In this document: in pieces, positions 6,463 through 57,035 of the stretch
How positions within the stretch are numbered: the stretch's first letter is position 1
Layout of the letters: every line of letters begins with the position of its first letter
NCBI GenBank assembly: GCA_947073495.1
Contig: CAMTMX010000001.1
Span: forward strand, 38,812 to 102,811
Direction of reading: 5' to 3'
Length of the DNA: 64,000 nucleotides
Origin: an uncultured Porphyromonadaceae bacterium
Lineage (GTDB): Bacteria; Bacteroidota; Bacteroidia; Bacteroidales; Muribaculaceae
Position numbers and translations under genes: made by a program
Notes under the pieces: model-generated
Database searches by the model: none
Told to the model about the DNA's origin: nothing
Seen by the model: only the letters and a program-made list of their open reading frames with translations

Positions 6463-6479
6463 AACTATATTTTTTATTT

Positions 6480-6625: not shown

Positions 6626-6628
6626 TAT

Positions 6629-8026: not shown

Positions 8027-9111
8027 TCCTCTTCCCTAACCGCTCCTATTTCTTTCAAGGCTCCTGTGGCAGGATCAAACACTGCATAAGAAGGCTCTTT
8101 TTTATCGCTGAACACAGATGGGTTAAGCCCGAAGACTACCCCGAACTGCGACATTTCCAATTCCTGTTGCCAAAGTGCATTTCCTTGGAAAGATACCGTC
8201 ACTTCCGCAGCACCGGGCACGCAATACGCAACAGCATCTTTGGGCAGTTTCTTTTCTTCTCCCTTGGAATCAACCGGAAGAGTCCCTTTATTCGTGATGT
8301 TTACCGAAATGTATACCGGTTCTCCCGAATAATCATCCGCACCTACAAACCCATTGAAATTGCTAAGCCGAAATAATGTCTTCTTTCCGTTTTCTGCAGG
8401 AACAAATGTAAAATTACGAACTACGGTCTCTTTTGTGATATTGCCGAGAAAAGCTGCCGTGAGAGTAGCCTCCTGATGTGCGAGGGAATTTAGCATCAGT
8501 TCAAGTTGCTTTCCATCTGTGGGCATAGTCTCGGCAGTGCCCCTTGTAAGGGAAATCTTGGCATCCCTAATCTCCATAAGATTTTCAGCGAGCATCTGTG
8601 CCTGCTTGGCAGAAGACTGGGAAGCAATAAAATCCTCATCAACATATTGGAGATACTCGTTATCTCCAATCTTTTCACCTTCAAACATGTCGACAGCAGC
8701 ATCCTCTTCCACCGGCAATTCAGGAGTTTTGTTGATGGAAAGAAGCATTCCGTCGGCATCAACCCCGATATATGTTGTGGACCCCGGCTTAAGTTGCATC
8801 AAATAACGGGAATCAGGATCCGGGATGCCATAGGGACGCACCTTCACCGATTTAATAGTCCATATTTCAGCATCATTTTTGACAACTTTGTCGGTGCCCA
8901 TATATTTTTTAGCATACTGATAATATGGTCCTGCCTTAAGGGTTTCTTTTACAGCCGTCACCTCAACATCCAATGCCGTGATTGGAAGAGTATATATCAA
9001 GCCGTATTCATTATGTTTCTCTGCGGTAAGTATTTTTGTCTGTTGTGCAGAGACCGGGACAAGCGATGCAAGAAGCATCACAGAGGTTAGAATGTTTTTT
9101 ATCATATTCAT
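8023..9111 (-). CDS. DUF4831-like secreted protein
   Basis: Signal peptide (MLLASLVPVSAQ) and YTLPITALDVEVTAVKETLKAGPYYQYAKKYMG; family name from memory. Confidence 0.65.
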   Translation of the reverse strand: MNMIKNILTSVMLLASLVPVSAQQTKILTAEKHNEYGLIYTLPITALDVEVTAVKETLKAGPYYQYAKKYMGTDKVVKNDAEIWTIKSVKVRPYGIPDPDSRYLMQLKPGSTTYIGVDADGMLLSINKTPELPVEEDAAVDMFEGEKIGDNEYLQYVDEDFIASQSSAKQAQMLAENLMEIRDAKISLTRGTAETMPTDGKQLELMLNSLAHQEATLTAAFLGNITKETVVRNFTFVPAENGKKTLFRLSNFNGFVGADDYSGEPVYISVNITNKGTLPVDSKGEEKKLPKDAVAYCVPGAAEVTVSFQGNALWQQELEMSQFGVVFGLNPSVFSDKKEPSYAVFDPATGALKEIGAVREEE

Positions 9112-9118
9112 TGTTTTG

Positions 9119-35154: not shown

Positions 35155-36678
35155 TTATCTCAATTTCTTACCCCATACCGATCTTCCATTTGAGTCGAGA
35201 CCTGTAAACAATATGGTGTCGGTCTCTCTTTCCCAGTCATGGCCCGCATGGAGAATCAGGTCAGTGATTATTTCTCCATTTATAGTGACATTGAGTAACT
35301 GACCTTTTTCATCAAGTTCCCATTTATCTTTCACTGTGCCCTTTCCGGAAATGGTTTCACCGTATGTGACATTATCCAACTTTAATGTGCCGTCACAGGA
35401 AAAAGACACGGAAAAAGAATCGTTCCACTCCCCTTTCTTCAAATCTCCTTCTCCCCATAAAATCTGACCCGCCTCAAGCCGGCGTTCCGCACGAGGTTCG
35501 GATACTCTTATAAATTCCCATTCCCCCTGCAAGTCTGAGGAAGAAAATTTCTTTGGATTCACTCCGGCGTATCTTTCGGGAGAAACGACCGGCCATCCGG
35601 ATGGAGTCATGAACACTTGTCTCAGATGAAGCACCATTAACCCTGAATCTTTAGCATACCTTCCCTGATGTGCCATGAAATAATTACCTTCCCCGTCGTC
35701 AAACACGCCACAATGAGCAGTCCCTACCCACCCGGAATGATTCTCAAATCTATAGGGTGCCGTCAGGATCGGGAAATTGTTGGTGGTGTCGCTCACTACA
35801 TTCCCTTTGAAATCGTAGAACGGACCCTCGGCACTCTCGGCACGCGCAACACGCACGTTGTAAGTGGTCATCAGGGGTTCGTAGCTTTGGAAAAGATAAT
35901 ACTTTCCGGTTGTCTCATGCCGGATTATCTCGGGAGCTTCCAGATTGTCTTTTCTCCAGTTTGCACGACGCGCCACGAGATGCCCCTGATCACCTGCTTT
36001 CATGACGAGTCCGGTCGCGGGATTCAGTTCCACACAATACAATCCTCCGAAATAAGATCCGTAATGCATCCATTGTTTCCCGTTTTCATCGGTAATTACA
36101 GAAGGGTCTATTGCGTTCATTTTAGAACTTTTGTCAGTGCGTACCACCGCACCTTTCTGAATCCAGGGACCTTCAGGAGAAGCCGCTTCTGCCATACCGA
36201 TATAAGAAGTGTTCATTCCGAATGCCGATACACAATAATACAGACGGAAATTGCCGTCGCCGCAGTCTACCATATAAGGAGCCCATATATTGGTGGCTCC
36301 TTTGCCGTCAGCTTTCTCTTTGACCCAAGCAACCGCCTCTGCAGGGATCTCCGGGAATACCCATCCGAGAAATTCCCAGTTGACGAGATCTTTCGATCTC
36401 CGCATCTGGATATATCCTAACGGAACATTTTTCTCCCGAGCCGCCTTGCGGTTTTCACGGTAGATGGCGTCAGTGGAATACATATAATAATAATCGCCCA
36501 CCTTTCGGCAAGCCGGATCGTGGACATTATATGTGCCCCAGTCTTTCCAGTTTTCCATCCCGGAGAGGTGGGTGTAGTCATCAGTCCAGGGGTTCGGTCT
36601 TGAAACCGGCGTGAAACCTTCCGACAGCATGGGAAGCGCAAAGAATGCCGCAAGACATATAGATGTAAAGAATTTCAT
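35155..36678 (-). CDS. Glycoside hydrolase family 43-like enzyme
   Basis: WGTYNVHDPACRKVGDYYYMYSTDA, MNAIDPSVITDENGKQWMHYGSYFGG, NLEAPEIIRHETTGKYYLFQSYE. Confidence 0.88.
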   Translation of the reverse strand: MKFFTSICLAAFFALPMLSEGFTPVSRPNPWTDDYTHLSGMENWKDWGTYNVHDPACRKVGDYYYMYSTDAIYRENRKAAREKNVPLGYIQMRRSKDLVNWEFLGWVFPEIPAEAVAWVKEKADGKGATNIWAPYMVDCGDGNFRLYYCVSAFGMNTSYIGMAEAASPEGPWIQKGAVVRTDKSSKMNAIDPSVITDENGKQWMHYGSYFGGLYCVELNPATGLVMKAGDQGHLVARRANWRKDNLEAPEIIRHETTGKYYLFQSYEPLMTTYNVRVARAESAEGPFYDFKGNVVSDTTNNFPILTAPYRFENHSGWVGTAHCGVFDDGEGNYFMAHQGRYAKDSGLMVLHLRQVFMTPSGWPVVSPERYAGVNPKKFSSSDLQGEWEFIRVSEPRAERRLEAGQILWGEGDLKKGEWNDSFSVSFSCDGTLKLDNVTYGETISGKGTVKDKWELDEKGQLLNVTINGEIITDLILHAGHDWERETDTILFTGLDSNGRSVWGKKLR

Positions 36679-36818
36679 GAAGATAATAGATTTGTTATGT
36701 AGATTGATAAATTCTCTTTATTGGGAAATACTCCCATCAGTTCCATTTGCAAAATTATCTAATCGCATCCTTAATGAGGTGTAATATTCAATCTTATTTG
36801 ACTGAAAGGGAGGTGTAG

Positions 36819-36845
36819 GGTGGATTTTTGAATAGAAAAGGTGGA
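36819..36845 (-). promoter_or_regulatory. Predicted HTCS operator upstream of the GH43 gene
   Basis: Minus strand TCCACCTTTTCTATTCAAAAATCCACC: TCCACC repeats at a 21-bp period; -7-like TAAGATTG 22 bp downstream (36789-36796, minus). Confidence 0.55.
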
Positions 36846-36977
36846 AAAAATAAGTTATGAGGGTGAAAATGTATAAAATGGTCAAAAAATGTTATAAATT
36901 TGTACATCTAAAAAGGGACTTTACTCCCGAATGCTTTCATAGCGACTGACATATTCACTGACCTTACTGAATCGTGC

Positions 36978-39900
36978 ATGAAACTCAACCGACTCATAAC
37001 TTTACTGGCAATCTCTTTGGCGTGGCTGTTTTCAAAAGCGGCATATCCACAAACCATATCCCTGATAAATACGTTTCCCGAAAACTATTCCGTCAGCTTC
37101 ATCACGATGCAGGAAGGATTGTCGCACAATTTTGTGGAAGACATCTTCCGTGACAGTAAGGGATATATGTGGATTGCCACATCCAGTTCCTTGTCACGTT
37201 ATGACGGCTATGAATTTGTGAATTTCACACCAAATTCTATTTCCAGACATATAAAAAGCACGTTTGTACGCAAAGTTGCGGAAGACAAGTTCGGGCGCCT
37301 GTGGGTTGCCAGCGACGGCGGTGTCGACATAATCAACCTTAATGACCTTAGCCCCGTAGATCTCTCCGCCGACAAGACCTTTAAGGAAATAGCCATGACG
37401 CCTGCTTTCTATATCACTTCGGATAAGGATTCAAATATATGGCTCAGAAACAGTAAAGATGTGGTCTGCGTTCAATTTGATGATAACGGAAATATACGCG
37501 ATATAGCGACTCTTCCTCACCAAACCACCGCCACAATCACATTGGGAGCCATCGAGTCATTGCCGGGGATAGACAAGGGGGTGTTGACAGGTGTTGCCGG
37601 GAATATATGTCTGCTGACTATTGAAGCCGGCAAAATAAATTCGAAGCCATTGTCTCCCGCCCTGTCGCTCGACCCTTCGAACTATATAGCAGATTTCATA
37701 CAGGCGGGCAATCATATATGGATAGCCACGGATGCCGGTCTTTATTGTTACGACATCTCTTCTCAGAATGTGAAGGTTTATAACGGAGGAGACGGAAAGC
37801 CGGGAAGTCTTTCCCAGACATTTGTCACGTCTTTGGAATTGACGGGCAACGGAGAGCTTATCGCGGGATGTCTTAACGGCATCAATATCTATGACCCTGC
37901 AACAGACGGGTTTTATCCGGTATCGGCATCCGACATCGACGGCAGACCCCATGGTCTTAACAATGATTTCATAAACTGTCTTATTGCCGAGGGGGATAAT
38001 CTTTGGGTAGGGACCGAGGGGTGTGGAATCAATTTATTTTCTCCCCGCAAACTCTATTCAAAGATGTTGCGTCATGATTCTTCCAATCCAGAATCCCTTT
38101 CGCCGCACCCGGTCAATGCAATTTTTGAGGATGGCGACGGGACCTTATGGGTCGGGACAGTTGAAGGGGGATTGAACAAAGGCATGAGCGGATATGACAA
38201 CGGGTTCATGCATTTCACGTCTGCCAACGGAGCCCTCCCCCATAATTCTGTCAGTGCCATCACTGCCGACCATACGGGACACTTATGGGTCGGGACATGG
38301 GGAGGGGGATTGTGTATGCTCGACAAGAGTAATCCCACCAAGACCTTACGGCTTCTCAATAAGGTAGAGGATGGAAGACGTCTGGAATATATAGGAGCAT
38401 TGGCGTATGATCCATATAACAACCTTATATGGATAGGGGCTAATTTTGGAATATTCATATACGACATCACAACCGACAAACTGTCGGTCCCGTTTAAGGA
38501 TGCAGACATTATCAGGGGAAGCGTTTCCATGGTCTTGGCTCCCGACGGCAGACTCTGGATAGGCGGTCTTGAAGGCGTTTTGGCTGTCAATCTCAAGAGA
38601 AGTGTGCGGAGTGGAGATTTTGAATTTGTGCATTACCCCAATAAACTTGATAATCCTGACTCTTCTGTCAATGAGAAGGTGACTTGTATAGCCCTTGCCC
38701 ATGACGGCACGATATGGGTGGGGACAAACGGGAATGGAATATACTGTTTTGACGGGGATGTAGCCTCCGGCAGGTTTGTAAACTACAATTCGTCTGACGG
38801 ATTGCCCAACGATGTGGTTCATGGCATAGCCGAAGATCCACATGGAAACCTCTGGATCGCTACATATCATGGGTTATCCTGTATGACGGCAACAGGAAAT
38901 TTTATTAATTTCGGACTAAACAACGGTCTGGATACAGAGCAGTTTTATTGGAATGCCTATCGCCGTCTTGCCAACGGTGATATCCTTTTCGGCAGTGTTG
39001 ACGGAATGTTGGCGATCAAGGGTCTTTCCGCCTCGGGACTTACACCGTATCCTGTTCATTTCACTTTTCTGACTGTAGACAATGACAAGACTTATGGAAA
39101 TCCGGTCTCTGCCAGCATACCTGAGAATGACCGTTCGTTTGAGATCGGTTTTTCGTCGTTCGATTATGCCGGCGAATCAAACGGCAGGTATCTTTATCGG
39201 ATGGTGGGATATGAGGAGGAATGGAAAGAGTTGGCAGCCGGCAGACATAGCGTAGCTTATATGAATCTATCCCCCGGAGACTACAGGCTTGAAGTCAAAT
39301 ATGTGGGACATGGACAATCTGCCGATTCGGCGCCGGTTTCAAGTTTTGAAATAGAGATAGTGCCCCATTTTTATAAGAGATGGTGGTTTATAATTCTTGT
39401 TGCCGCCGCCCTCTTGGTAAGTGTGCTTGCCGTATATAAATGGAGAATAAAAGACTTGACCCGTCAGCGCAACGAACTCAAGAAGGCTGTCGACGAGAGT
39501 GTCAAAGAGATTACAGAACAGAAATCGCTTCTCGAAGTGCATGCGCATGAATTGAGTGAGCAAAATATAGAATTGAAGCTGCGCAACGAGCAGATAAGCG
39601 AGCAGAAGAGTCAGCTTTCCGAAATGGCGGGGAAGGTGCAACAGCTCACCGCCGACCGTATTTCATTCTTTACAAATATCACACATGAATTCCGCACGCC
39701 GATCACATTAATTATCGGTCCGATAGAGCGTGCCTTGAAACTTAGCACCAATCCCAAGGTGATAGAACAGTTGAATTTTGTGGAGCGTAATTCACGCTAT
39801 CTCCTGTCGCTTATCAATCAGTTGATGGATTTCCGCAAGATAGAGTCCGGAAAAATGGAGAAAGTGACAGTAAAAGGTAATATCCGCACATTGATCGACG

Positions 39901-41207
39901 AGATCATCCTCCCCTTCCGTGCATACGCCGAGGAAAGGGGGATAGAGATACGCGCCATGTATCATCTTTCCACTCCGGTGTTTAATTTCAATGAAGACGC
40001 CATACGGAAAGTGCTTACCAATCTTTTGGGGAATGCAATCAAGTTCACTCCCGATAATGGAAAGGTTTCTGTCTATGCGTCGATCTTCAGGAATGAAAAA
40101 TGTGGAGACGGCAATATCTTTTATCTTTGTGTAAGCGACACGGGATGCGGACTGAAAGAAGACGAGACGGATAAGGTGTTTGATCATTTCTATCAGGGAC
40201 AAAGCCAGATAAAATATCCGCTAATCGGGGCAGCCGACAGCGGAATAGGGCTATATCTGTGCCGTAGGCTTGTGGAGGTGTATGGCGGCACAATCAACGC
40301 ACGCAACAACCATGGCACGGGGTGCTCGTTTAGAGTGCTTATGCGGGTGGATGGAGCAGAGATAGAAAATTTACCAGCAGGTGGCTCATTGCTGTTGCCG
40401 GCGGCTTCACATGAAGAAAACCAGTCAGACCGCCGTCAGACCGTGCTTGTGGTGGAAGACAATCCCGATATGAGGGGCTTCATGCGATCTGTGCTTGGAG
40501 ACCATTATAGTGTGGAAGAGGCGGGGAACGGGGAGGAGGCGCTTCTCCTTCTTGAAAAGAAAGACGTGGATTTCATTATCAGCGACCTTATGATGCCGGT
40601 GATGGATGGTCTTGAACTTGCGGGTAAAGTGAAGGAAAATTTTGCAATATCCCACATCCCGTTCATCATGCTTACAGCAAAGACTTCGCAGGAATCAAGG
40701 ATGGAGGGGTATCGCAAAGGAGTAGACGACTATATATTAAAGCCGTTTGACGAAGAAATGTTGCTTACAAGAATAAACAATATCCTTGCCAACAAGCGCC
40801 GTTATCAGCGGAAATTTGTGTCAGACATGCAGGTCGATCATCTTGAAATAAAAGAGGAGAGCCGCGACAAAAAGTTTGTCAATAAGGTGATGGAGGTTTT
40901 GAAGGATAATTATACCAATTCATATTACGAGGTTGGAGAGTTTGCGGATGCTCTCGGCGTTAGCAGGAGTCTTCTCAACAAGAAACTCCAGAGCCTTATG
41001 GGACAAGGGGCAAACCAGCTGATGCGCATGTATCGTCTTAAGGTGGCGCATGAATTGATCATGCAAAATCAGGGAACGAAGAATATGAACGTATCGGAAG
41101 TTGCATTTCAAGTAGGGTTTAACGATTCAAAATATTTTACCCGCTGTTTCACCAAACAATACGGAGTGAATCCGAGTGTATTGCTTAAAGGGGCGCCCAA
41201 TAATTAA
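36978..41207 (+). CDS. Hybrid two-component system regulator (HTCS): periplasmic propeller, histidine kinase, receiver, AraC-type HTH
   Basis: WIATSSSLSRYDGYEF propeller repeats, FFTNITHEFRTPITLI (HisKA), VLVVEDNPDMRGFM...ISDLMMPVMDGLEL (receiver), C-terminal VSEVAFQVGFNDSKYFTRCFTKQYGVNPS. Confidence 0.96.
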   Translation: MKLNRLITLLAISLAWLFSKAAYPQTISLINTFPENYSVSFITMQEGLSHNFVEDIFRDSKGYMWIATSSSLSRYDGYEFVNFTPNSISRHIKSTFVRKVAEDKFGRLWVASDGGVDIINLNDLSPVDLSADKTFKEIAMTPAFYITSDKDSNIWLRNSKDVVCVQFDDNGNIRDIATLPHQTTATITLGAIESLPGIDKGVLTGVAGNICLLTIEAGKINSKPLSPALSLDPSNYIADFIQAGNHIWIATDAGLYCYDISSQNVKVYNGGDGKPGSLSQTFVTSLELTGNGELIAGCLNGINIYDPATDGFYPVSASDIDGRPHGLNNDFINCLIAEGDNLWVGTEGCGINLFSPRKLYSKMLRHDSSNPESLSPHPVNAIFEDGDGTLWVGTVEGGLNKGMSGYDNGFMHFTSANGALPHNSVSAITADHTGHLWVGTWGGGLCMLDKSNPTKTLRLLNKVEDGRRLEYIGALAYDPYNNLIWIGANFGIFIYDITTDKLSVPFKDADIIRGSVSMVLAPDGRLWIGGLEGVLAVNLKRSVRSGDFEFVHYPNKLDNPDSSVNEKVTCIALAHDGTIWVGTNGNGIYCFDGDVASGRFVNYNSSDGLPNDVVHGIAEDPHGNLWIATYHGLSCMTATGNFINFGLNNGLDTEQFYWNAYRRLANGDILFGSVDGMLAIKGLSASGLTPYPVHFTFLTVDNDKTYGNPVSASIPENDRSFEIGFSSFDYAGESNGRYLYRMVGYEEEWKELAAGRHSVAYMNLSPGDYRLEVKYVGHGQSADSAPVSSFEIEIVPHFYKRWWFIILVAAALLVSVLAVYKWRIKDLTRQRNELKKAVDESVKEITEQKSLLEVHAHELSEQNIELKLRNEQISEQKSQLSEMAGKVQQLTADRISFFTNITHEFRTPITLIIGPIERALKLSTNPKVIEQLNFVERNSRYLLSLINQLMDFRKIESGKMEKVTVKGNIRTLIDEIILPFRAYAEERGIEIRAMYHLSTPVFNFNEDAIRKVLTNLLGNAIKFTPDNGKVSVYASIFRNEKCGDGNIFYLCVSDTGCGLKEDETDKVFDHFYQGQSQIKYPLIGAADSGIGLYLCRRLVEVYGGTINARNNHGTGCSFRVLMRVDGAEIENLPAGGSLLLPAASHEENQSDRRQTVLVVEDNPDMRGFMRSVLGDHYSVEEAGNGEEALLLLEKKDVDFIISDLMMPVMDGLELAGKVKENFAISHIPFIMLTAKTSQESRMEGYRKGVDDYILKPFDEEMLLTRINNILANKRRYQRKFVSDMQVDHLEIKEESRDKKFVNKVMEVLKDNYTNSYYEVGEFADALGVSRSLLNKKLQSLMGQGANQLMRMYRLKVAHELIMQNQGTKNMNVSEVAFQVGFNDSKYFTRCFTKQYGVNPSVLLKGAPNN

Positions 41208-41247
41208 GTTTTTAACCAATACTTAAAAATTTTTAAGGAATTTTAGT

Positions 41248-41278
41248 TTGTCCACCACCTTTACTCAATTGTCCACCA
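41248..41278 (+). promoter_or_regulatory. Predicted HTCS operator upstream of the first PUL operon
   Basis: TTGTCCACCA at 41248-41257 and 41269-41278, 21-bp period. Confidence 0.65.
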
Positions 41279-41298
41279 TATACGCGCGTGGAAACACC

Positions 41299-41306
41299 TA
41301 ATTTTG
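41299..41306 (+). promoter_or_regulatory. -7 promoter element TAATTTTG of the PUL operon
   Basis: Matches TAnnTTTG; no good -33 element, its place is taken by the direct repeat. Confidence 0.6.
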
Positions 41307-41384: not shown

Positions 41385-43214
41385 ATGAAGACAGAGAAAT
41401 GGATGCCAGCGGCAGCCCTTGCTGTTCTACTGACCACGATGACATCTTGCGAAGACTGGGGACAACAGGACCCGCCTGCAGGAAATCAGGTTTATCCAAC
41501 CCTGGAAAACGTGGCGGCTTTTGATTTTGATGCGGATGAGGGACTGGATCTTGCCATGTTCACCCCAGTCGCGAATCCCGGCGGGAGCACTCCCCAGATT
41601 ATTGAAGACGAAATCAAGGGGAAAGTGCTTGAACTTAACAACGGACATGTGTTTTTATCCAACCCGTTTTCGAAGACGACACTTCAGAAGGCGGCTTCTT
41701 TCACATTCTGGATGAAACAGCCGGTGCAGACCGTCACCGACACAGATGGAAATGAGGTGAATGAGCCTCAGGATCTGTCTGCAACTCTATTGATGTTTGA
41801 AAACGAGACCGGCAACGGAACTCTTTCAATCAATGCCAACGGAGGAATCAAATATTCGGCGGCAGACGGGGAATGGACCGAAAACGATCCTTCTTCGGTA
41901 ACTACCGGCTACATGACTCCCGGTGACTGGCATTATGTAGCTGTCGTTCTCAATAATGACGGCTATGAATGGTATGTTGACGGTGACAGAAAGGTAAGCA
42001 AGACTGTCACAGAATTCGATTGCTCGAAACTTGTGAAGTTTGCCAACAATGTGCCCACGATGATTATCGGCGGCACAGAAAATTCATCGCTGTTGCTTGT
42101 GGATGATCTGAAAATCTATCGCAACGCCTTGACGGAAAAAGAGATCGCTCGTCCTAATCTTGGAGGTGGTGAAGGTCCTTCCGGTCCGGATTTAAGCACC
42201 TGGACTCTTGTCGGGCTTGAAGACAACACCACAGGATTCTGGAGCATGTGGGCGGATTACGTAAACCTTACCGGAGACGGCACCGTACATTATGATTTCT
42301 ACAACTATCATGGCGGAAAGAATGATAACTGGTGCAACTGGGGACTTGTGCTCACCAACGGTCCGGAGCGTGGAGCCGACGGTTATGCGGAATATCTCTA
42401 CCTGCGCGCAGACGCCTACGGATGGGGCAACAACTATAACGGCGACAATATCACCCATGATTTCGATTGGGGTACCTTCATGTCGGAAATGGACGGAGCG
42501 TTTGTGTCTCTTGATATTACGAGGAAAGGGACAGATGTGACGGTGACAGCTCTTGTTACTGCCGAAAACGGCACCGAAAGACACTATTCTATCCGTGTTG
42601 AGGGTGTAGACAGCGAAGTGCTTGGCACATTCCTTACATGCGAGGGTTCACACCTGCTTATCAATCCGCAGACAGTATTCGTGGGTCAGACATATACCGC
42701 CGGGCAATATGTCACCGGACAGACTGACTGCAGCACAGGATGGTGGTCGGCACATTCACCCAACAACCGTTTCGACGGCAATTTCAAGAACTGGGGAGTA
42801 GAATTTGTGAACCATACGACAGGTGCAGGTGCCAACTGGAACAACTGGCTCCTCGTATGTTCCAATGGCCCATGGGTAGGAGAAGCAGGTTATGCCGAGA
42901 ACTTTGTGCTCCGTTCTGATGCCTACGGCTGGGGCGCAAGCTTCGATGGTGGCAACACTACAATGGAACAGGCTTTTGATTGGGAAACTTATGTGGCCGA
43001 CATGAAAGATGCCAATGTAAAGATTCTCTTCTCATACTCGGCAGGGACTCTTGACATGTATTGCACCCAGACCACTGCCGACGGCAGGGAGATGCCCCCT
43101 TATAAATTCTCGGCAAGTTCACTGACAGCCCCTATAGGACTTTTCTTCACATGCGAGCTGGCATGGCTTGAGTTCAGCAAGGTGGGATATTATCCCTGGG
43201 CGACTATGGAATAA
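41385..43214 (+). CDS. LamG/concanavalin-like lipoprotein of the PUL (surface glycan-binding candidate)
   Basis: Lipobox TTMTSCED; VLELNNGHVFLSNPFSKTTLQKAASFTFWMK, YVAVVLNNDGYEWYVDG; two similar C-terminal domains. Confidence 0.65.
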   Translation: MKTEKWMPAAALAVLLTTMTSCEDWGQQDPPAGNQVYPTLENVAAFDFDADEGLDLAMFTPVANPGGSTPQIIEDEIKGKVLELNNGHVFLSNPFSKTTLQKAASFTFWMKQPVQTVTDTDGNEVNEPQDLSATLLMFENETGNGTLSINANGGIKYSAADGEWTENDPSSVTTGYMTPGDWHYVAVVLNNDGYEWYVDGDRKVSKTVTEFDCSKLVKFANNVPTMIIGGTENSSLLLVDDLKIYRNALTEKEIARPNLGGGEGPSGPDLSTWTLVGLEDNTTGFWSMWADYVNLTGDGTVHYDFYNYHGGKNDNWCNWGLVLTNGPERGADGYAEYLYLRADAYGWGNNYNGDNITHDFDWGTFMSEMDGAFVSLDITRKGTDVTVTALVTAENGTERHYSIRVEGVDSEVLGTFLTCEGSHLLINPQTVFVGQTYTAGQYVTGQTDCSTGWWSAHSPNNRFDGNFKNWGVEFVNHTTGAGANWNNWLLVCSNGPWVGEAGYAENFVLRSDAYGWGASFDGGNTTMEQAFDWETYVADMKDANVKILFSYSAGTLDMYCTQTTADGREMPPYKFSASSLTAPIGLFFTCELAWLEFSKVGYYPWATME

Positions 43215-43245
43215 TAAGTAACTTAAAATCTAACCATACATCATA

Positions 43246-46200
43246 ATGGATAAAAAAGGAATAACAGCCGAAGGACGGCGGGGCAATATGCTCCTCCTCC
43301 TCCTCCCGGTTCTCCTTCTGATGCTTGCCGTATTCCCGGCGGGCGCGGAAATTGTGAAAGGAGTGGTCAGCGACGCTTCAGGAGAACCTCTTATTGGCGC
43401 TACAGTCATAGAAAAAGGAACAACCAACGGCACAGCTACCGATATCGACGGTTTCTTCCAGTTAAATCTGAAAGACGCCAAGAAAGGTGTGCTTGTGGTG
43501 TCATACGTTGGTTATGCCACCCAGGAGGTGGAAGTGAAAGGACAGACAGATCTACAGATCACTCTCCAGGAGGAATCTTCTCTTCTTAACGAAGTAGTGG
43601 TGGTAGGTTATGGTCAGCAAAAGAAAGAGTCGGTGGTGGGAGCAATCTCCCAGGTCAATTCCGGCGATCTTCTGGAGACTCCCTCCGCCAACCTTTCCCA
43701 GGCGATCACCGGCAAGATTCCCGGTGTGATCACTTCTCAGACTTCGGGTGCGCCCGGTGCGGACGACGCCTCGATCTACATCCGCGGACGTGCAACATTC
43801 GCAGGTGACGCCCAGCCTCTTATCCTTGTTGACGGCGTTGAGCGTTCTTTCTCCCAGATCGCGCCAGACGATATCGAGACAATCTCTGTGCTTAAGGATG
43901 CTTCGGCAACTGCCGTATATGGCGTGCGAGGTGCGAACGGCGTTATGCTTATCACCACAAAACGAGGTAAGGAACAAAAACCGATCGTGAACCTTACCGC
44001 CTCATGGCAGTTCTAGACCCCTACCCGCAAGAATACGTATCTGAACTCATATGAGTCGGTCTCCCTTCTTGAGGAGGCTCTTGCCAACGACGGTCTTCCC
44101 TCTCAGTATTCCTCGTATGACCTCGACATGTATCAAAAATCAGTCAACGGTCAGTTGAGCGGAGTTGAGGCTCTCCTTTACCCCAACGTAGACTGGTATG
44201 ACGAGATTCTGCGCTCTTCCGCCCCCTCGCAGCGCTACAACGCAAGTGTACGCGGCGGAACAAAGAGAATGCGTTACTACGCTTCTTTAGAATATTACGA
44301 TCAGGAATCTCTTTTCAAGAATCTTTCAAAAGACCCTTACGGCAACTCCACATCTTTGAATTATAAAAGATATGGTTTCCGTGCGAACGCCGATTTCTTC
44401 CTGACAAAAGATCTTCAGTTGTCAGTGAATTTCGGAACCCGTTTCGAGGAACGCCGAGGCCCTAACTCAGACGAAAGAGACGACGGTTCATACAGTAATG
44501 TATTCTATCAGCTGAACCATACGCCGGGATGGCTTTTCCCCGTGGCATACGAGGTGCAGAACGGAGAGACAACCAAGACTCTCTACGGAGGAAGCTCACA
44601 ATATCAGAGCAATGTCTATGCCACTCTTGCCGAATCGGGATACTACAAGGGAGTCAATACTGTCAACGAAACGAACTTTATTGCAGACTACAAGATGGAT
44701 TGGCTAACCCCGGGACTTTCGGCACGAGGGATGGTGAGCTTCGACTATGAAAATTATCATAAGACCACCTACAGCAAGTCTTTTGCCACATACGAGCTTA
44801 ACGACCGTGACAACTACCAGAGCATTGACGCCTATAACCGGTTTAATACCGATGGCACAATGACGAGCAGAAAAACCAGCTTCACTGTCTATAAGCTTTA
44901 TATGGAGGCTCAGTTGAACTATGCACGTAAGTTCGCAGATCTCCATGACGTGACAGCCATGGTGCTTTATATGCAGAACGACTATCGCTACCAGAGCGAC
45001 CTCGCCAAACGTTATCAAGGTGTGGTAGGGCGTGTCACATATGCATACGACGACCGCTATCTTTTCGAGTTCAATGCCGGATACAACGGTTCCGAGAACT
45101 TTATGAAAGGTAAACGTTTCGGTTTCTTCCCCGCATTCTCGGCAGGTTGGCGAATCACTCAGGAGAAATTTATGGAAAATTCCACCGATTGGCTCAACAA
45201 CCTTAAACTGCGCGCATCATACGGTCAGGTAGGTAATGATGTATATCAGGTCGGGGGTGTGCAGCAGCGATTCCTTTATGAGCAGAAATGGAGTCAGATC
45301 GCAAACGATTACTACTTTGGCACATCCGGTCAGACAGGTATTTTTGAAGAACAGTATCCTAACTATGGGGTGACCTGGGAACGTGCCCATAAATACAATG
45401 TGGGTCTTGAATTCGGGCTGTTCAACAATTCGCTTAGCGGTAATATCGATTTCTTCTGGGAAAAGCGCAACAATATTCTTACGGAATATCTCACACGTCC
45501 ATGGTGGTTTGGTGTGACATCTGCAGCCGGAAACCTTGGTAAGACTGAAAACAAGGGTTTTGAAATCGAACTTCATTACAGCAACAAAATCGGAAACGAT
45601 TTCAAATATAACATAGGGGGAACCTACTCTCACGCGAAGAACAAGATCACAGAGATGGACGAACCTGCCAACAAAACGGACTACCGCAAGCGTACAGGCC
45701 ATGCAATCGGTCAGTATTTCGGGCTTGTGGCAGACGGATTCGTGACTCAGGCTGACATCGATGGCGGAAATCTGCCCACATCTACATTCGGCACCGTGAA
45801 GCCCGGCGATCTCAAATATCGCGACATGAACGGCGACGGATTTATTGACGACCGCGACGAGACATTTATAGGATATTCCGATATTCCGGAAAACACATAC
45901 GCCATCACTCTCGGCGCGGAATGGAAAGGTATCGGATTCAGCATCATGTTCCAAGGTGTGGATCACGTGAGCCGCTATTATGATGCGGAAGCGATGTATG
46001 CCTTTGTCAACGGCGGCAAGGTGAAAGAACATCATCTTGACCGTTGGAACCCTGCACTTTCAGAATCGGAGAATCTCGCGAATGCCAAATATCCCCTCCT
46101 TCACTACGACAGCTATGGCGACCATAACCAGCGGACCAACTCCTTCTTCCTGAAGAACGGTTCATTCTTCCGTCTGAAGAATATCGAACTCTCCTATTCC

Positions 46201-46374
46201 CTCCCGGAAAAATGGATCAAACACGCTTACATGAGCCAGTGCCGTTTCTTCGTAAACGCCAACAACCTCGTGACATGGGATCATCTTAACGGGCTGACCG
46301 ACCCTGAGAGCAACGGGTCGAACCGCTATCCTATCTGCAAGACTGTCAACTTTGGTGTCAACATCCAATTCTAA
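43246..46374 (+). pseudogene. SusC/RagA TonB-linked outer-membrane protein interrupted by one in-frame TAG at 44014-44016
   Basis: ORFs 43246-44016 and 44128-46374 are in the same frame (offset 882 nt = 294 codons); translation continues as SWQF*TPTRKNTYLNSYESVSLLEEAL with no other stop. Confidence 0.85.
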
Positions 46375-46386
46375 TCTGATATCGAA

Positions 46387-48156
46387 ATGAAAAAATCATA
46401 TAAATTCTTAGCGTTGGCTTTCATGCTCAGTGGTGTCTCCGCGTTGACTTCGTGTGGAGACTTCCTCGACAAGCAGCCGTCTAACGAGCTTACAGAAGAT
46501 AAGACTCTCGGCAGCTGGAGCATGTTTGAATATTTCCACAACGATACATATAATTTTATTCGTCATGGCGCCAACCGTATAAATGGCTCATGGCTGGATG
46601 CCGCCACGGATCTTGCCGAGACGTCGTTCGCTACCGGAGGCGCCCGCACAACCTTTAATATAGGCAACTATTACGGAGGCGGAGGCACCTCGGAATTCAA
46701 TGACACATGGGAATCACGTTATCGTGCCATCCGCAAATGCAACAGGGTGATCAATCAGATGGATCTCGTGCCTAAAGATATCACAAAAACCGAAGAGCAG
46801 GAGTTGCGCGACCGTGCCATAATGCGTGCGGAGGCTCGCACATTCCGCGCATATTTCTATTGGGAGTTGTTTCTCCGTTTCGGTCCGCTGCCTATTGTGA
46901 CAGAGGTGCTCGATCCGGACGAAGATATGATCTCCCCCTATTCAAAGCGTCCTTCTGTGAGGGAATATGTGGTTGATTTCATTCTTAAAGAGTTGGAAGA
47001 ATCAGAGCCGGACCTGCTTTCATATACAGATGCCTGGAGCGCCAACAGAATCGGAAGGCTTTCCCAGCCAATGGCCCGGGCTCTTGCCTCACGAATTAAA
47101 CTCTATATGGCTTCTCCGAGATATGCCGCCGAAAGCGGAGTGACCTGGCAGGATGCCGCTGATGCCGCCAACAGTTTCATTCAGGACTTCGGCGCCAATT
47201 TCGGTCTGTTTTCTGAAGCAAATATCGACCCTGCCGAGAATTATGCCAATGCAGTGCTCCGCACACAATATACCGGTAATAACAACGAGGTCATCTTTTT
47301 CCGTAACGATGTGGCTATCGGATGGGCTAATATATCTCAGGATACTCCTGTAGGAGAAGGCGGGAGCGGAGGAAACTGTCCCTCTCAGAATCTTGTGGAT
47401 ATGTATGACATGATCGACGGCTCGTCTCCATTCGCGCAGTATGACGCCACCGGCGCGCCGGTTTATCCTTCAGGCTCACTGGTGCCGGCAATCAATGAGG
47501 AAAGCGGATATAGCGATGCGGAGATGTGGGAGAACCGCGATCCTCGTTTGAGGGCTACAGTGCTTTATCAAGGCACTCCTTGGGGAACAACGCGCGACAA
47601 CAGTACAATCGACGTACGTCCCGGAATGGCAGACAATCCAACCGGCAATGCCAATGCAACTCCGACAGGCTATTATATGCGCAAATATATCCCCGCTTCT
47701 ATCCTTAGCTCGAACCATAGCGGATCTGCCTACCGCCTTTGGACCGTCATCCGATATGCGGAGATCCTTATGAACTATGCGGAGGCTATGAACGAGGTCA
47801 ACGGTCCCTGCCAACAGGTTTTTGATATGCTTGACCAGGTGCGCCATCGCGCCGGTATAACCGGAAGCGTAGCCGATCGTCAGGACCTTTCGAGCAAGGA
47901 AGCCATGCGTAATTTCATTCACAAGGAGCGCACGGTGGAATTCGCTTTTGAAGAGCACCGTTCTTGGGATGTACGCCGCTGGAATGTGGCTGTCGAGGCT
48001 CTCAGCCGTCCGATCTATGGAGTGAATGTCGCTATGGACGGCACAGTGACCCGCAAGAAAGCTCAGGATCGTGTGTTTGAAGAGCGTATGTATCTCTATC
48101 CAATACCAGAGGGAGAGATCTGGAAGACAAATCTGGAAAACAATCCGGGATGGTAA
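46387..48156 (+). CDS. SusD/RagB-family nutrient-binding lipoprotein
   Basis: Lipobox ALTSCGDFLDKQPSNELTED; IRYAEILMNYAEAMNE; HKERTVEFAFEEHRSWDVRRW. Confidence 0.95.
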   Translation: MKKSYKFLALAFMLSGVSALTSCGDFLDKQPSNELTEDKTLGSWSMFEYFHNDTYNFIRHGANRINGSWLDAATDLAETSFATGGARTTFNIGNYYGGGGTSEFNDTWESRYRAIRKCNRVINQMDLVPKDITKTEEQELRDRAIMRAEARTFRAYFYWELFLRFGPLPIVTEVLDPDEDMISPYSKRPSVREYVVDFILKELEESEPDLLSYTDAWSANRIGRLSQPMARALASRIKLYMASPRYAAESGVTWQDAADAANSFIQDFGANFGLFSEANIDPAENYANAVLRTQYTGNNNEVIFFRNDVAIGWANISQDTPVGEGGSGGNCPSQNLVDMYDMIDGSSPFAQYDATGAPVYPSGSLVPAINEESGYSDAEMWENRDPRLRATVLYQGTPWGTTRDNSTIDVRPGMADNPTGNANATPTGYYMRKYIPASILSSNHSGSAYRLWTVIRYAEILMNYAEAMNEVNGPCQQVFDMLDQVRHRAGITGSVADRQDLSSKEAMRNFIHKERTVEFAFEEHRSWDVRRWNVAVEALSRPIYGVNVAMDGTVTRKKAQDRVFEERMYLYPIPEGEIWKTNLENNPGW

Positions 48157-48213
48157 TAAAGTTGTTAAGACAGCTTTAATCCTTAAAAATGAAACAGAAA
48201 AATTCGAACATAT

Positions 48214-51200
48214 ATGAACCACATCATAAATCATATAAGGAACAAGGTAAAACCCGCTTTCACGGCAGCTGTCATCACCGGCTGGTCTGTAGCGGCGTTT
48301 GCCGCCCCTACAGGAAATATCCTCAAAGGTCGTGTAGTCGATCCTGAAGGGAATCCTATCCCGGGGGCTGTGGTGAATCTTGCCGAGCAAAGCAAAGTCG
48401 TGTTCACCAACGAAAACGGAGAGTTCTCTATTAAAGACGCCAACTATGACGATGAGGTCAACGCCACCTGCACGGGCTACCTTACATCAATAATTCCTGT
48501 TGAGGATTTCAGTGCGCCGATCGAGATCGTGTTGCAGCCGGACACTGATCCTTATGCGCATCTTGCGCCGGTGGCTTTCGGGGAACAGCAGAAAAAATTG
48601 CTTACCGATTCCCGTTCAGTAGTGACCGGCGAGGAGCTTCAGCGTTATCCCGTCACTGTGCTTCAGAATGCCTTCAACTCCCTTTTGACAGGCGTGGAGA
48701 CATATGAGGTGTCTTCAGAACCTGGCTGGTCTGAGACTAAAATGTATGTGCGCGGTATCCGCACCCTTAACTCAAATGCACGCAACCCTCTGGTCATAGT
48801 CGATAATGTGGAGCGAGACCTCTCCTTCCTCGACGCTTTCCCTATTGAATCCGTGACAGTGCTGAAGGATGCTGCCGCCACTGCACTTTATGGCATGCGA
48901 GGAGCGAATGGCGTCATCCTGGTGACCACTAAACGAGGCGAGGCGGGAAAGACGCACATCAATTTCACTCAGGAGGTAGGTTTCCAGACTCTCACTGGCA
49001 AAGTGGAAAACCAGAATTCCTATAATCTTGCGTTGACAAAGAATCAGGTGCGTTATCTTGATGGAAAAGACCCAATCTATTCCCCGGAACAGATTGAGAA
49101 ATATCGTCGCGTATGTTCCGGAGAGACCCTTGATGGTATGGACCGTTACCGTTATTTCAATACCAATTGGTTTGATGAGCTTTATCGCGAGACAGCCCCT
49201 GTGGTCAAGACCAACCTCCAGATTTCGGGAGGCAACAACCGCGCGCGATACTATGTGTCGTTCTCATATCTACGTCAGGAAGGTATGTGGAACTCTAAAG
49301 GCACGAGTTTTAATGATCGTTTTTCGACACAACATGTTCTCAACCGTTGGAACCTGCGTTCCAACCTTGACATTAATGTCAACAAATATCTCCGTGTAGG
49401 TCTTGACCTCGGCGGACGTATTGATAATATTCTTCAACCCACCACCAGGGTGTTTGACCTTACTACCTTCGGCGCCGTGGAAGCGGATCCCATGCGTCCG
49501 GTCTATTGCCCGAACGGCGAACTGTATGTGGACGGAAGCGCCAACAACCCTACATTTCAACTTGGGTCGTCAGGTCAGGAGAAGAACCGCAGACGCCAGC
49601 TTTATTCAACTGTCGATGTGACAGGAATACTTGATCCGATCACCAAAGGTCTGGAAGCAAATCTTGTTGTCAGCTTTGATGCATTCGATGTGTTCCAGTC
49701 GACTCAGACAAACCGTGTCAACTCATATTCTTATGATTTCACAAATATGGCGGTGGAGAATGTGGATGACTTCACCTATACTCAGACCAACCGTTATTCT
49801 GAATTGACTAATCCTTCCGCTAACGAACGCGCCAATTCCTGGACCCTCAACACCCGGTTCGGGTTCAAGTATGACCGTGAATTCGGAGATCACCGAGTAC
49901 AGGCAAACGCTTTCATCCGTGCCTATCAGCAACGTCTCAATGTGAAGGAGGCGAATACCGACAATTCGATGTATTCATCCGACCGTTATCTTTCCTACAA
50001 CGGATCGCTTGCATATATCTACGGCGGACGTTATATCGTGTCTGGAAATATCTCCCGTATGGGTAATGACAACTTCGCCCCCGGCGACCAATGGGGCACA
50101 TTCTGGGGAGCATCTCTCGGTTGGGTGCTTTCGGAAGAAAAATTCCTGAGGAATCCGAATATCGATCTTCTGAAATTCCGTGCCTCCTATGGTAAGTCGG
50201 GTATGAGCGACACAGGCGCAGGACGCTATCCCTATCAGTCTACTTTTGCAACTTCAGGAGGTTACAGTTTCGGACACAATGCCACACTTGTGCCGGGATT
50301 TATAGAAAGTGTAGCCGGCAATCCTAACAGCAAATGGGAGATTTCGAAGATGCTCAACCTTGGACTTGACTGGGACTTCTGGCATCACCGCCTCTATGGT
50401 TCGTTTGATGTCTTCAAGGAATGGCGTAGCGACATCCTCATAGAACGCTCCACAAACCCCGATATCCTCGGTATCACTTTCGCCCGCGATTCATATGGCA
50501 AGGTGGAGAGCCGTGGTCTTGAACTGACAATCGGTCATTCAAACAAGATCGGCAACGTAACCTACACGGTGGAAGGTATGCTTTCATGGAACAAGAACAA
50601 GATTATAGAGATGGATGAGATCGCGCCCTCTGTAGAATGGCAGCGCAAGACAGGAGACCGCATCCGTGATTATGCTTCCGTGGCTTCTATCTACGAATGG
50701 GAAAACAGGGACGTTGTCGGCGGTTGGAACGCTTACCGCTTCAACGGCTGGGCTTCAGATCCCGCACTCATCTCGACTTCACAGGCTGACGCTATCGCGC
50801 ACCCCGAGAAATATCCTTACAACACATTTTCGGGAGGAGGCCAGAAACTCGGCACGGCGGTGTTCCGCGATCTTAACGGAGACCGTCAGATCGACTCACG
50901 CGACATGGAACCCTACGGATATACCCTTATCCCTGATCTCACGCCCTCTATCTCGATTTATGCCGCCTACAAGGGATTCGACCTGAAAGTGATAGGCACC
51001 GCATATCTGAACCGCTCAGTGTTCCTTTCCCCTTCAATGACATTCTCCGAATGGGGTAACAACAATGCCACTCACGAGGTTACGAAAGCATGGGGCTACT
51101 ACACGGACGATCCTATGGATCCGCGTAATATCAATGCAAAATATCCGCGTCTGAGCTATACCTATAACACAGAAGATTCTTCACGTGACAACGGTTCTTA

Positions 51201-51447
51201 TCAGAACGATATATGGATCATGAACGGTGATTATTTCTCACTCCGGAACATAGAGTTCGGCTATTCTCTCCCGACAAGCCTTATCTCCAAAATCCACATG
51301 AGCCAATGCCGCTTCTATTTCAGCGCATACAACATTGCCAACTGGAGCCACATGCCTGAGGGTATGGATCCGGAGAAGCCGATGTCTTATTGCTGGTGGT
51401 ATCCTAAAACCCGCACGTTTAATTTCGGTCTTCACATTGAATTCTAA
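48214..51447 (+). CDS. SusC/RagA TonB-linked outer-membrane protein
   Basis: [60 protein letters not shown], C-terminal [20 protein letters not shown]. Confidence 0.96.
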   Translation: [1077 protein letters not shown]

Positions 51448-51531
51448 ATTATGATAATGGTTTCAGATCTATGACTCGTCGGATATCGACGGGCATAGAC
51501 TGAAAACCGGATCAACAAAATCAAGATTATC

Positions 51532-53310
51532 ATGAACTCCAAAATATTATCAATAGCGGCTGTGGGTCTCCTCTCCCTGGGGGCGGCTTCCTGCAGCGAT
51601 TATCTCGACAAGGAGGTCGACCTAACCCTTCAGGCAGAGAATGTCTTTTCAGACTATGACCGTACGCGAGGCTATCTCGCCCAGCTCTACGATTATCTTC
51701 CCGATGCTTTTCAAGGTTATAACGATACTCAATATCGACTCTCACAAGATTGCATGACCGATAATGCAGTAGATTACTGGGGTGTGGCAAGATACCATTC
51801 CGTCATGGCTGATGCCTATGACGCCACCAACCATTGGTTTGCCGATTTTTATTGGTCAAGAGATTACTCCGGTATCCGTGGAGTCAACCAGTATCTCCTC
51901 AATGCACGTCCGGATGTTGTTGGAAATGCAGAAAAAACGGGCGATGACAGCCGCCTTTACGACCGATGGGATGCCGAAGCGAGAATATTGCGTGCCATTC
52001 TTCATTTTGACCTGCTATGCTGGTATGGCGATATCCCCATTGTGGCGGATGATGAAAACGGCACTCCGATAATCCTTGCGCCGTCTACCCCTCTACCCAA
52101 ACGCACGGCTGCTGCCGATGTCCTTAAATGGATTGCGGATGAATGTGACAAATATAAGGACAATCTCCCCTTCCGCTACAGTGATGAAACAGAGAACTGG
52201 GGCAGAATAAACGGTGCAGCCGCATACGCACTCAAAACACGCGCGCTTCTTTTCCGCGCATCTCCCCTCTTCAACCCCGGGAACGACGTTTCACGCTGGA
52301 CGGAAGCCGCAAATGCCGCAAAGGATTTCATAGCCAAGAACAGGATGCAAAGCAATCCCTATAGGCTTTATACAACCGACAGTAATGATCCCTCGCAGAA
52401 CTATTATCAGTGTTTTATTTCAAACCCTGTGCTCAACAACGAGTATATTCTGAGCCGTTCTGTCTGGACCACTCTTCAGATAGAGTTTTTCAATGCCCCC
52501 TGCGGCTTCACCGGCTCTATCAGCGCGACAGGTTATCTCAACCCGACACAGAATCTTGTGGATGCATACGAGACAATCAATGGTCTTCCGATTGATCAAG
52601 ATCCGTCGTATGATGCCCAAAATCCATATGTAAACCGTGACCCGCGTCTTGAGCAGACCATTCTCCACCATGGTTCCATATGGGGCGACGGCGATGAGGC
52701 GCGTCCGATAGACGTAAACAACGACGACACCCGTACCGGAGCGGATTATGCACGTGGCAACGGAGGAACCGCCACCGGTTATTATTCTAAAAAGTATCTT
52801 CACAACATCCGCTGGGACGGCACTGTGGGCAATCAGCGCCATGCGTGTCCGATTTTCCGCTACGCCGAGATACTCCTTGCCGCTGCGGAAGCGCTCAATG
52901 AGTCGGGACAGACCGGAGAGGCATACGACTATGTCAATCAGGTGCGTGCACGTGTAGGTATGCCTGCTTATTCAGGAATGAGCCAGGAGCAGTTGCGTGA
53001 GCGCATACAGAATGAAATTAGAATTGAATTCTGTTTTGAAGACCACAGGTATTTCGACATGCGTCGTTGGAAATTGTTTGAAAAGAATGGCGGCAGTGCG
53101 TCTGCCGAGGCGTCTCTTCCTCGCTATCGCCAGGTGTTCACACTTTACGGTGTTGCTGTAAGGGAAGGCTCTTCCCAGACTTTCAACTATGGTCTGAGCG
53201 ATATTGATTCTCACTATTCGTTTACAGCCCCGAAGAATTATTTCTTCCCGATTCCTTATGATGAGCTTCAAAAGACGGGATATCCTCAGACGCCCGGCTG
53301 GGAGCTTTAA
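51532..53310 (+). CDS. SusD/RagB-family nutrient-binding lipoprotein
   Basis: Lipobox GAASCSDYLDKEVDL; FRYAEILLAAAEALNESG; NEIRIEFCFEDHRYFDMRRW. Confidence 0.95.
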   Translation: MNSKILSIAAVGLLSLGAASCSDYLDKEVDLTLQAENVFSDYDRTRGYLAQLYDYLPDAFQGYNDTQYRLSQDCMTDNAVDYWGVARYHSVMADAYDATNHWFADFYWSRDYSGIRGVNQYLLNARPDVVGNAEKTGDDSRLYDRWDAEARILRAILHFDLLCWYGDIPIVADDENGTPIILAPSTPLPKRTAAADVLKWIADECDKYKDNLPFRYSDETENWGRINGAAAYALKTRALLFRASPLFNPGNDVSRWTEAANAAKDFIAKNRMQSNPYRLYTTDSNDPSQNYYQCFISNPVLNNEYILSRSVWTTLQIEFFNAPCGFTGSISATGYLNPTQNLVDAYETINGLPIDQDPSYDAQNPYVNRDPRLEQTILHHGSIWGDGDEARPIDVNNDDTRTGADYARGNGGTATGYYSKKYLHNIRWDGTVGNQRHACPIFRYAEILLAAAEALNESGQTGEAYDYVNQVRARVGMPAYSGMSQEQLRERIQNEIRIEFCFEDHRYFDMRRWKLFEKNGGSASAEASLPRYRQVFTLYGVAVREGSSQTFNYGLSDIDSHYSFTAPKNYFFPIPYDELQKTGYPQTPGWEL

Positions 53311-53346
53311 TTCAATTATTAATTGATAATTAGTAATTTGATATTT

Positions 53347-55251
53347 ATGAAATTAACTAAATATTTATCTATCGCGTTTGCTGCAGGTCTCCTTTTTATG
53401 GGGGCTTGTAGCGATGACGATAATGTGAATTATCCCGAAGGTCAAGGGATAGTACTGGAGACTCCTCATGCAGTTGACTGTGGCGGCAGCTATGCCTCGT
53501 TTGCGACTATCTTCCACATGAAAAACGACGCCCACTACACAAAGGCAGGTTATGTGATCTCGGAAACTCCGAACCCTACAATATATGGCAGCGTGTATGA
53601 TGCCACAATAAGCGGAGACACGATCAAGGCAACTATCGTTGACCTCGCGCCGGGCCGCGAATATCATGTGAGGGCGTTTGTCAATGAATATAAAGGTGAC
53701 GTGATTTATTCTTCCGATTTCGTTTTTAAAACAGGGGAAGGCTCTCTCCAGGAGCAACTCGATCATTATCGCGGACCATCCTATCCTGATTATTATGTGG
53801 ATATTGCAGGGTGGGGAAACCGCAGCCAATGGAACCTTGCCAATGTGCACGACCCCTCGGTTGTGAAAGCGGCAGACGGTTACTATTATATGTATCAGAC
53901 TGATGCTTCATACGGTAACGCCCATGTGGAAGGGGGACATTTCCATGGCCGCCGCTCAATAGACCTTGTAAATTGGGAGTATCTCGGCGGCACGATGCAG
54001 GCTCTCCCTGAATGGGTTGTGCCTAAGCTCAACGAAATCCGCGAAGGTATGGGACTCGCAGCCGTTACTCCCGATGTGAACGCTTTCGGATACTGGGCTC
54101 CGAGTGTGGTTAAGGTCAACGACAACCTCTATCGCATGTATTATTCCATTGTTGTGCCCGGTCTTATAGACGGAGATAATTCATGGGGTGAGCGTGCTTT
54201 CATCGGCATGATGGAAAACTCTGATCCCGCCAATAATGAAGGTTGGGAAGACAAGGGTTATGTGATCACAAATGCATCTGACAAGGGTCTTGACTTCAAT
54301 GTGGCACCCAACGACTGGGGTAACTGCTACTATAAGTATAATGCAATCGACCCGTCGGTCATCATCACTGAAAACGGTGAGCACTGGATGATCTATGGCT
54401 CCTGGAACAGCGGTATCGCAGCAGTGAAGTTGAATCCCGAGACCGGCAAGGTGGCGGCAGAACTGGGCAATCCCTGGGGCACTGACGCGGAAATAGCTCC
54501 TTATGGCAAATTGATCGCCACCCGTCAGATGGGCAACCGCTGGCAGGCTTCAGAGGGTCCGGAGGTGATTTATCGTGACGGTTATTATTATCTCTTCCTT
54601 GCATATGACGCTCTCGAGGTTGCCTACAATACCAGAGTGGCGCGCAGCCGTAACATTGAAGGCCCGTATGTGGATATCAACGGCACAAACATCACCGACA
54701 ATGGCGGGGACGCGCTTCCGGTTGTGACGCATCCGTATATGTTTGCCAATTCGCAGGGATGGGTAGGTTTCTCCCATTGCACAGTGTTTAATGACGGGGA
54801 TGGAAACTGGTTTTATGCATCGCAGGCACGTTTCCCCTCCGGTGTCAACGGTAATGACGCGAGCAATGCCCTTATGATGGGTCATGTGCGTTCCATCGTA
54901 TGGACTAAAGACGGCTGGCCTCTTGTAATGCCCGAGCGCTACGGCGCTGTTCCGCAGCTCCCGATAACAGAGGAAGAGCTTGTTGGCAGTTGGGAAATTA
55001 TAGATATGGCATATTCCTATGCACAGATGAAGGAATCGTCCAATAGCGTGCTTACAGCCGATCATTTGGTAAGCGGCGGAGTATGGGACGGAGAAGCGTG
55101 GAATTACGATGCACAGAGCCAGATTTTAAAAGTTGGAGACGTTGAGCTTTATCTCAAGCGTGAATGCGACTGGGAGAATTCCGAACGCCGTGCCACAATC
55201 GTTTGCGCCGGCATTTCCAACACTACCTGGTGGGGTAAAAAATCGATATAA
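53347..55251 (+). CDS. GH43-like lipoprotein with N-terminal FN3-like region
   Basis: Lipobox LFMGACSDDD; LAPGREYHVRAFVNEYKG; NLANVHDPSVVKAADGYYYMYQTDA, YNAIDPSVIITENGEHWMIYGSW. ATG used instead of the ORF-track TTG. Confidence 0.87.
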   Translation: MKLTKYLSIAFAAGLLFMGACSDDDNVNYPEGQGIVLETPHAVDCGGSYASFATIFHMKNDAHYTKAGYVISETPNPTIYGSVYDATISGDTIKATIVDLAPGREYHVRAFVNEYKGDVIYSSDFVFKTGEGSLQEQLDHYRGPSYPDYYVDIAGWGNRSQWNLANVHDPSVVKAADGYYYMYQTDASYGNAHVEGGHFHGRRSIDLVNWEYLGGTMQALPEWVVPKLNEIREGMGLAAVTPDVNAFGYWAPSVVKVNDNLYRMYYSIVVPGLIDGDNSWGERAFIGMMENSDPANNEGWEDKGYVITNASDKGLDFNVAPNDWGNCYYKYNAIDPSVIITENGEHWMIYGSWNSGIAAVKLNPETGKVAAELGNPWGTDAEIAPYGKLIATRQMGNRWQASEGPEVIYRDGYYYLFLAYDALEVAYNTRVARSRNIEGPYVDINGTNITDNGGDALPVVTHPYMFANSQGWVGFSHCTVFNDGDGNWFYASQARFPSGVNGNDASNALMMGHVRSIVWTKDGWPLVMPERYGAVPQLPITEEELVGSWEIIDMAYSYAQMKESSNSVLTADHLVSGGVWDGEAWNYDAQSQILKVGDVELYLKRECDWENSERRATIVCAGISNTTWWGKKSI

Positions 55252-56420: not shown

Positions 56421-57035
56421 TTTGTAGATTTATTAGTTGGAAATAATTGGTATGGAATGTATATAAGTTGTCTGCCAACCCATATGCAAAAATACAAAAT
56501 CAAACCGACACTTGTGTGTCAGTTTGTATCATATACGTCTAATAACACTTCTTATACACAAATATCCACCAAAAAAGTCTTGAAACCATGATTTTGGAAA
56601 GACATAACCTTATGCCTGCCTTGTCTCAATTTATAGACATATTCAGTAAAATTTTGGAACGCTCTCATAAGAGCGACAAGTTATGTCGTTTGCGGATTGT
56701 AATTTTGTGCAAACTTGAAAAAGCCTGTGAAATAGAGAATCATGAAAGAAACTGTTTGACAGTCTGTTGTCTTGTAATTTAGGTCTTTGTTGGCATCTTT
56801 AAGATATTTATTCAGTCATTAAGGAACTCCATGACTCCATTATAATATCAAAAAACTACCTGACAAATACTCTCAATTCCTTCGACAAATAAATTTATAC
56901 AGTTTCCAAGAGACTTCAATTATTCACAATCGGCTTAAATACTTATCTTAAAATCATTAAAATATGACTGCTAAACAATCACCGTCAGCTAAAGGAATGA
57001 ATTTATTTCTTCGTGTCTTTTGGGAAAAGTATGGA

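Follow-up and report, generated by a model that had tools for sequence, protein, structure and literature searches.

To our knowledge, precise operators are known for few HTCSs, and for most PUL regulators the link to a target is still by gene neighbourhood alone. In B. thetaiotaomicron, BT0366 was found by EMSA to shift the BT0365 promoter as well as a BT0366-BT0367 fragment (PMC5061871), ChIP-seq placed a BT0366 signal at its own PUL (PMC3404733), and arabinan induction of that locus was strongly dependent on BT0366 (PMC5061871, PMC3404733). In the main text of Ravcheev et al. (2013, PMC3878776), HTCS motifs were predicted as direct repeats averaging 21 bp, and HTCS_Ara-1 (BT0366) is named there. 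Further, an S/CHIP motif in the receiver domain has been connected with how the DNA-binding domain is inhibited (PMC11253607), and promoters of the Bacteroidetes primary sigma factor carry TAnnTTTG at -7 and TTTG near -33 (PMC7366714). Two other papers (PMC12125979, PMC4942465) hold nothing bearing on HTCS operators, and a literature search of main texts found no report of TCCACC in connection with an HTCS.

The window analysed here, a stretch of 64,000 nucleotides from an uncultured Muribaculaceae bacterium, contains a predicted arabinan PUL laid out like the BT0366 type, with two SusCD pairs, endo-arabinanase GH43 genes and a divergent promoter by the HTCS. The HTCS gene ends at 41207 and a lipoprotein-SusCD operon starts at 41385; the 177 bp of intergenic DNA from the stop of the HTCS to the next start hold the repeat referred to below as operator 1. 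The features of the locus are:

35155..36678, minus strand: divergent GH43, endo-arabinanase-like, predicted target of operator 2
36789..36796, minus strand: candidate -7 element TAAGATTG of the GH43 promoter, 22 nt past operator 2, with one mismatch (assignment uncertain)
36819..36847, minus strand: operator 2, TTTCCACC-N13-AATCCACC, in the HTCS/GH43 divergent region, from a relaxed search of the assembly
36978..41207, plus strand: HTCS sensor-regulator, 1409 aa (Pfam; SHIP motif)
41247..41256, plus strand: upstream half-site of operator 1, TTTGTCCACC (consensus of 112 sites)
41268..41277, plus strand: downstream half-site of operator 1, ATTGTCCACC, over the -33 position (consensus of 112 sites)
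41299..41306, plus strand: -7 element TAATTTTG, 21 nt past TCCACC (distance backed by spacing scans)
41385..43214, plus strand: LamG-type lipoprotein, first gene of the predicted target operon
43246..46374, plus strand: first SusC, with an in-frame TAG at 44014-44016
46387..48156, plus strand: first SusD
48214..51447, plus strand: second SusC
51532..53310, plus strand: second SusD
53323..55251, plus strand: GH43, endo-arabinanase-like, last gene of the predicted operon

The locus shares with the B. thetaiotaomicron arabinan PUL BT0360-BT0369 an HTCS beside an operon that has two SusCD pairs and an endo-arabinosidase. Both have a divergent promoter, which faces BT0367 there and the GH43 gene in the window, whereas the genome of the window has a GH51 pair elsewhere, with a degenerate operator of its own. 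The presumed equivalence with BT0366 rests on gene order, enzymes and the literature. As in the Bacteroides operators predicted in the main text of Ravcheev et al. (PMC3878776), the site is a direct repeat with a spacing of about 21 bp, lies upstream of a PUL beside an AraC-type HTCS and is conserved across species, although the window comes from another Bacteroidales genus. Direct-repeat HTCS motifs with a 21-bp period have been on record since 2013, and the window is a well-supported new example, not a new mechanism. What is possibly new is the rigid geometry towards the -7 element, the TTTGTCCACC core shared along with a DNA-binding-domain signature, and a site in trans at GH51 genes; the main text of PMC3878776 describes no TTTGTCCACC half-site, no fixed 20-21 nt to -7 and no DNA-binding-domain signature, and mentions neither the breadth of the core nor a GH51 site in trans.

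The AraC-type HTH ascribed to the upstream HTCS was borne out by Pfam, which returned a complete chain of Reg_prop, Y_Y_Y, HisKA, HATPase_c, REC and HTH domains, so that the periplasmic propeller/Y_Y_Y sensor, kinase, receiver and AraC-type HTH stand in one protein. Its receiver domain carries a SHIP motif ('ishipfimlta'). Endo-arabinanases are among the closest solved structures for the GH43 encoded at 53323-55251, and the gene order of the PUL is kept in relatives. The TAG at 44014-44016 is codon 257 of the first SusC; as a glutamine stands there in a nearly identical contig and in the aligned orthologues, the TAG is taken to reflect either a recent nonsense mutation or a mistake in the assembly.

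Operator 1 is very probably (roughly 0.92) a class II-type activator operator through which the HTCS of 36978-41207 would control the arabinan PUL. TTGTCCACCA occurs twice, at 41248-41257 and 41269-41278, with a period of exactly 21 bp (two helical turns). The original prediction had described this repeat and its period, a distance of 21 nt from the last TCCACC (41272-41277) to TAATTTTG (41299-41306), and the absence of a -33 box, and each of these proved correct when recomputed. Compared with promoters of the primary sigma factor, the window has the same perfect TAnnTTTG at -7 in TAATTTTG but differs in that a half-site replaces TTTG at -33. No TTTG is present near -33 of this promoter, the letters at about 41275-41278 being ACCA; the second half-site spans the -33 position, and the ATTG nearest to -33 (41268-41271) is too far upstream to serve.

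When spacings were left free, the matches converged on those of the window. When the half-site gap could vary from 7 to 31, exactly N15 was seen in 11 of 15 matches in 393 genomes of the order, against four matches over all gaps of 7-31 for a reversed control pattern. Similarly, when the distance to the -7 element could range from 6 to 36 nt, 10 of 14 matches in 297 genomes of the family lay at 20-21 nt, and among the public matches listed, gaps of 20, 21 and 22 nt numbered 86, 30 and 5. This nearly fixed distance to -7, together with the occupancy of the missing -33 box, points to an activator of the class II type.

From the computed sequence, spacing, conservation, co-occurrence and gene content we infer binding, ligand and activation as follows. 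Arabino-oligosaccharides would bind the sensor in the periplasm and trigger phosphotransfer to the receiver domain of the HTCS, whose phosphorylation would release the AraC-type DNA-binding domain. Two HTCS subunits would then each occupy one TTTGTCCACC half-site, two turns apart and on one face of the DNA, and the downstream subunit, over -33, would touch RNA polymerase and so activate a promoter whose -7 element is good but which has no -33 box. The predicted regulon comprises the lipoprotein-SusCD-SusCD-GH43 operon (41385-55251) through operator 1, the divergent GH43 gene (35155-36678) through operator 2, and a distant pair of GH51 arabinofuranosidase genes through a third operator.

The same placement could be read the other way, with the adjacent HTCS binding mainly to repress and its occupancy of -33 blocking RNA polymerase until a sugar signal arrives. 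The overlap of the site with the -33 position would suit such a role, and ChIP-seq ties BT0366 also to loci under its repression (PMC3404733). However, deletion of BT0366 costs the orthologous-type B. thetaiotaomicron locus its induction, a promoter without a -33 box would be weak unless activated, and the set spacing to -7 fits contact with polymerase, making repression as the main role a poor prospect.

The reading of operator 1 as an activator site of the neighbouring HTCS also draws on the distribution of the motif. TCCACC-N15-TCCACC is found four times in the whole 3.5-Mb assembly, twice within ORFs, and the exact copies between genes number just two, one on either side of the HTCS of 36978-41207, which is the only HTCS in the assembly with exact operator copies on its flanks. 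The second of these, at 36819-36845 on the minus strand on the other side of the HTCS, had been overlooked by the original prediction; it lies within operator 2, which is also found in two relatives. One finding counts against the model: there is no perfect -7 element 20-22 nt from operator 2, and a perfect TAATTTTG stands at 36750-36757, 61 nt beyond it. The original prediction had called for a genome-wide motif search, and the matches that this search returned are not scattered but track the HTCS and arabinan genes, which supports its proposal that the repeat is a site of the HTCS directly upstream. Six relaxed matches in the same genome were rejected, as were the other two exact N15 copies, since all lie within ORFs. 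Near other HTCS genes of the genome, of which seven were taken, the top matches to 21-bp repeats were mostly AT-rich and weak, with two plausible.

In a genus sample of 101 species genomes, an HTCS orthologue was detected in six, and all six have TCCAC[CT]-N15-TCCACC at the same promoter, followed 20-21 nt on by TAAATTTG, TAATTTTG or TAATTTTA. The site pattern occurs in seven of the 101 genomes, that is in 6/6 with the HTCS versus 1/95 without (Fisher p = 5.5e-9, an optimistic figure because the species are related and the events are not all independent). The seventh genome is 53% complete, and in it no HTCS orthologue was found; there, the site stands directly upstream of a GH51 orthologue.

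GH51 genes also mark the site in trans. On contig C92 of the window's genome, an intergenic, degenerate copy of the operator, TTTCCACA-N13-TGTCCACT, is followed after 21 nt by TAACTTTG and precedes a gene for an alpha-L-arabinofuranosidase (closest solved structure MgGH51), itself followed by a second such gene (the pair spans 6080-9765 of the C92 locus L159), away from the PUL. This match was retained because it is intergenic, with 21 nt to its -7 element, and stands ahead of GH51. This degenerate site, in each case 21 nt from a TAnnTTTG, precedes the orthologous GH51 gene in four further genomes, all of which bear the HTCS, so that the site is present in 5/5 HTCS-bearing genomes whose GH51 promoter was examined. 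Two close GH51 orthologues (81-85% identical), in genomes in which no HTCS orthologue was detected, lack it, as do more distant GH51 orthologues. That a pattern defined at a SusCD promoter picks out a distant arabinan enzyme is strong functional support. As operator, geometry and the GH51 target in trans are each supported independently by comparison, the regulon of this HTCS becomes predictable in uncultured species of the gut.

Beyond the genus, a public scan of 85,462 species genomes gave at least 118 stretches. Those listed are mostly from Bacteroidota, including Bacteroides, Phocaeicola, Mediterranea, Prevotella, Dysgonomonas and Lewinella, and the listed matches outside this phylum lie mostly within ORFs. 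Most of the Bacteroidota sites listed adjoin an HTCS and stand ahead of SusC, surface-protein or GH43 genes, and two Bacteroides loci have a site on both sides of the HTCS, as in the window. The wider layout among the matches listed has two TTTGTCCACC copies with a 21-bp period, and TAnnTTTG a further 20-21 nt on. Across the 112 distinct intergenic sites listed, TTTG, although not among the letters searched for, is the consensus ahead of both TCCACC blocks; this convergence of unsearched letters defines the half-site as TTTGTCCACC, which the window matches. At locus L119 (Bacteroides xylanisolvens XB1A, NC_021017.1 1856001-1864000), a SusC gene next to an HTCS is likewise preceded by this operator, and the DNA-binding domain of that HTCS shares 63% identity with the one in the window.

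Most HTCSs beside TTTGTCCACC sites have in common the sequence GFND[PS]KYFTRCF in the second helix-turn-helix, and their linker is 2-4 residues longer than in their paralogues from the same genome, which do not have this signature. Signature and longer linker together suggest, though they do not prove, a specificity code. There may be one operator grammar across Bacteroidota, namely TTTGTCCACC twice at 21 bp, 20-21 nt and TAnnTTTG, used by many HTCSs for various glycans and read by the subclass with GFND[PS]KYFTRCF and the longer linker; the odds on this broader proposal seem about even to us. If true, it would explain by a general rule how an HTCS substitutes for the contact at -33, and HTCS regulons could be predicted from it, targets in trans included.

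The wide use of the core has a bearing on which protein reads operator 1. As TTTGTCCACC is common to many HTCSs, binding by a related HTCS is conceivable as well, and the main text of PMC3878776 has BT0365 of B. thetaiotaomicron under the control of both AraR and an HTCS. A site of another regulator, for example an AraR-type arabinose repressor or a paralogous HTCS, is nevertheless slightly less probable still than repression by the adjacent one: published AraR sites tested by EMSA are of the GTGT...ACAC type and not TCCACC direct repeats, the site co-occurs with the orthologue of the HTCS in 6/6 genomes, and the DNA-binding domains of paralogous HTCSs in the window's genome carry other signatures.

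A functionless chance duplication can practically be dismissed, for although short repeats arise randomly in AT-rich intergenic DNA and 84 of 5000 dinucleotide shuffles of the 177-bp region contained a direct repeat of 10 bp or more when the period could be anything between 8 and 40, chance is rejected by the conservation across species, the set spacings, the co-occurrence with the HTCS and the GH51 site in trans. A repeat of that length at period 21 appeared in 0/5000 such shuffles. The single 10-mer with one mismatch is uninformative on its own, matching the window as often as shuffled sequence; the evidence for operator 1 as an activator site of the HTCS is its pairing, spacing, position and conservation, not the single 10-mer.

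Some further repeats were seen. In the divergent region upstream of a paralogous HTCS on contig C22 of the same genome, TTCACACCC occurs twice at 22 bp and is followed after 21 nt by TAATTTTG, a promoter geometry like that of operator 1 with a different core. Past the PUL, at 56565-56570, a single intergenic TCCACC stands without a partner half-site. Just upstream of operator 1, at 41206-41241, there is an imperfect AT-rich repeat, AAGTTTTTAACCAAT / AAATTTTTAAGGAAT, with a period of 21 and in phase with operator 1. A perfect palindrome of 16 bp, CTTAAAAATTTTTAAG (41222-41237), overlaps this AT-rich repeat.
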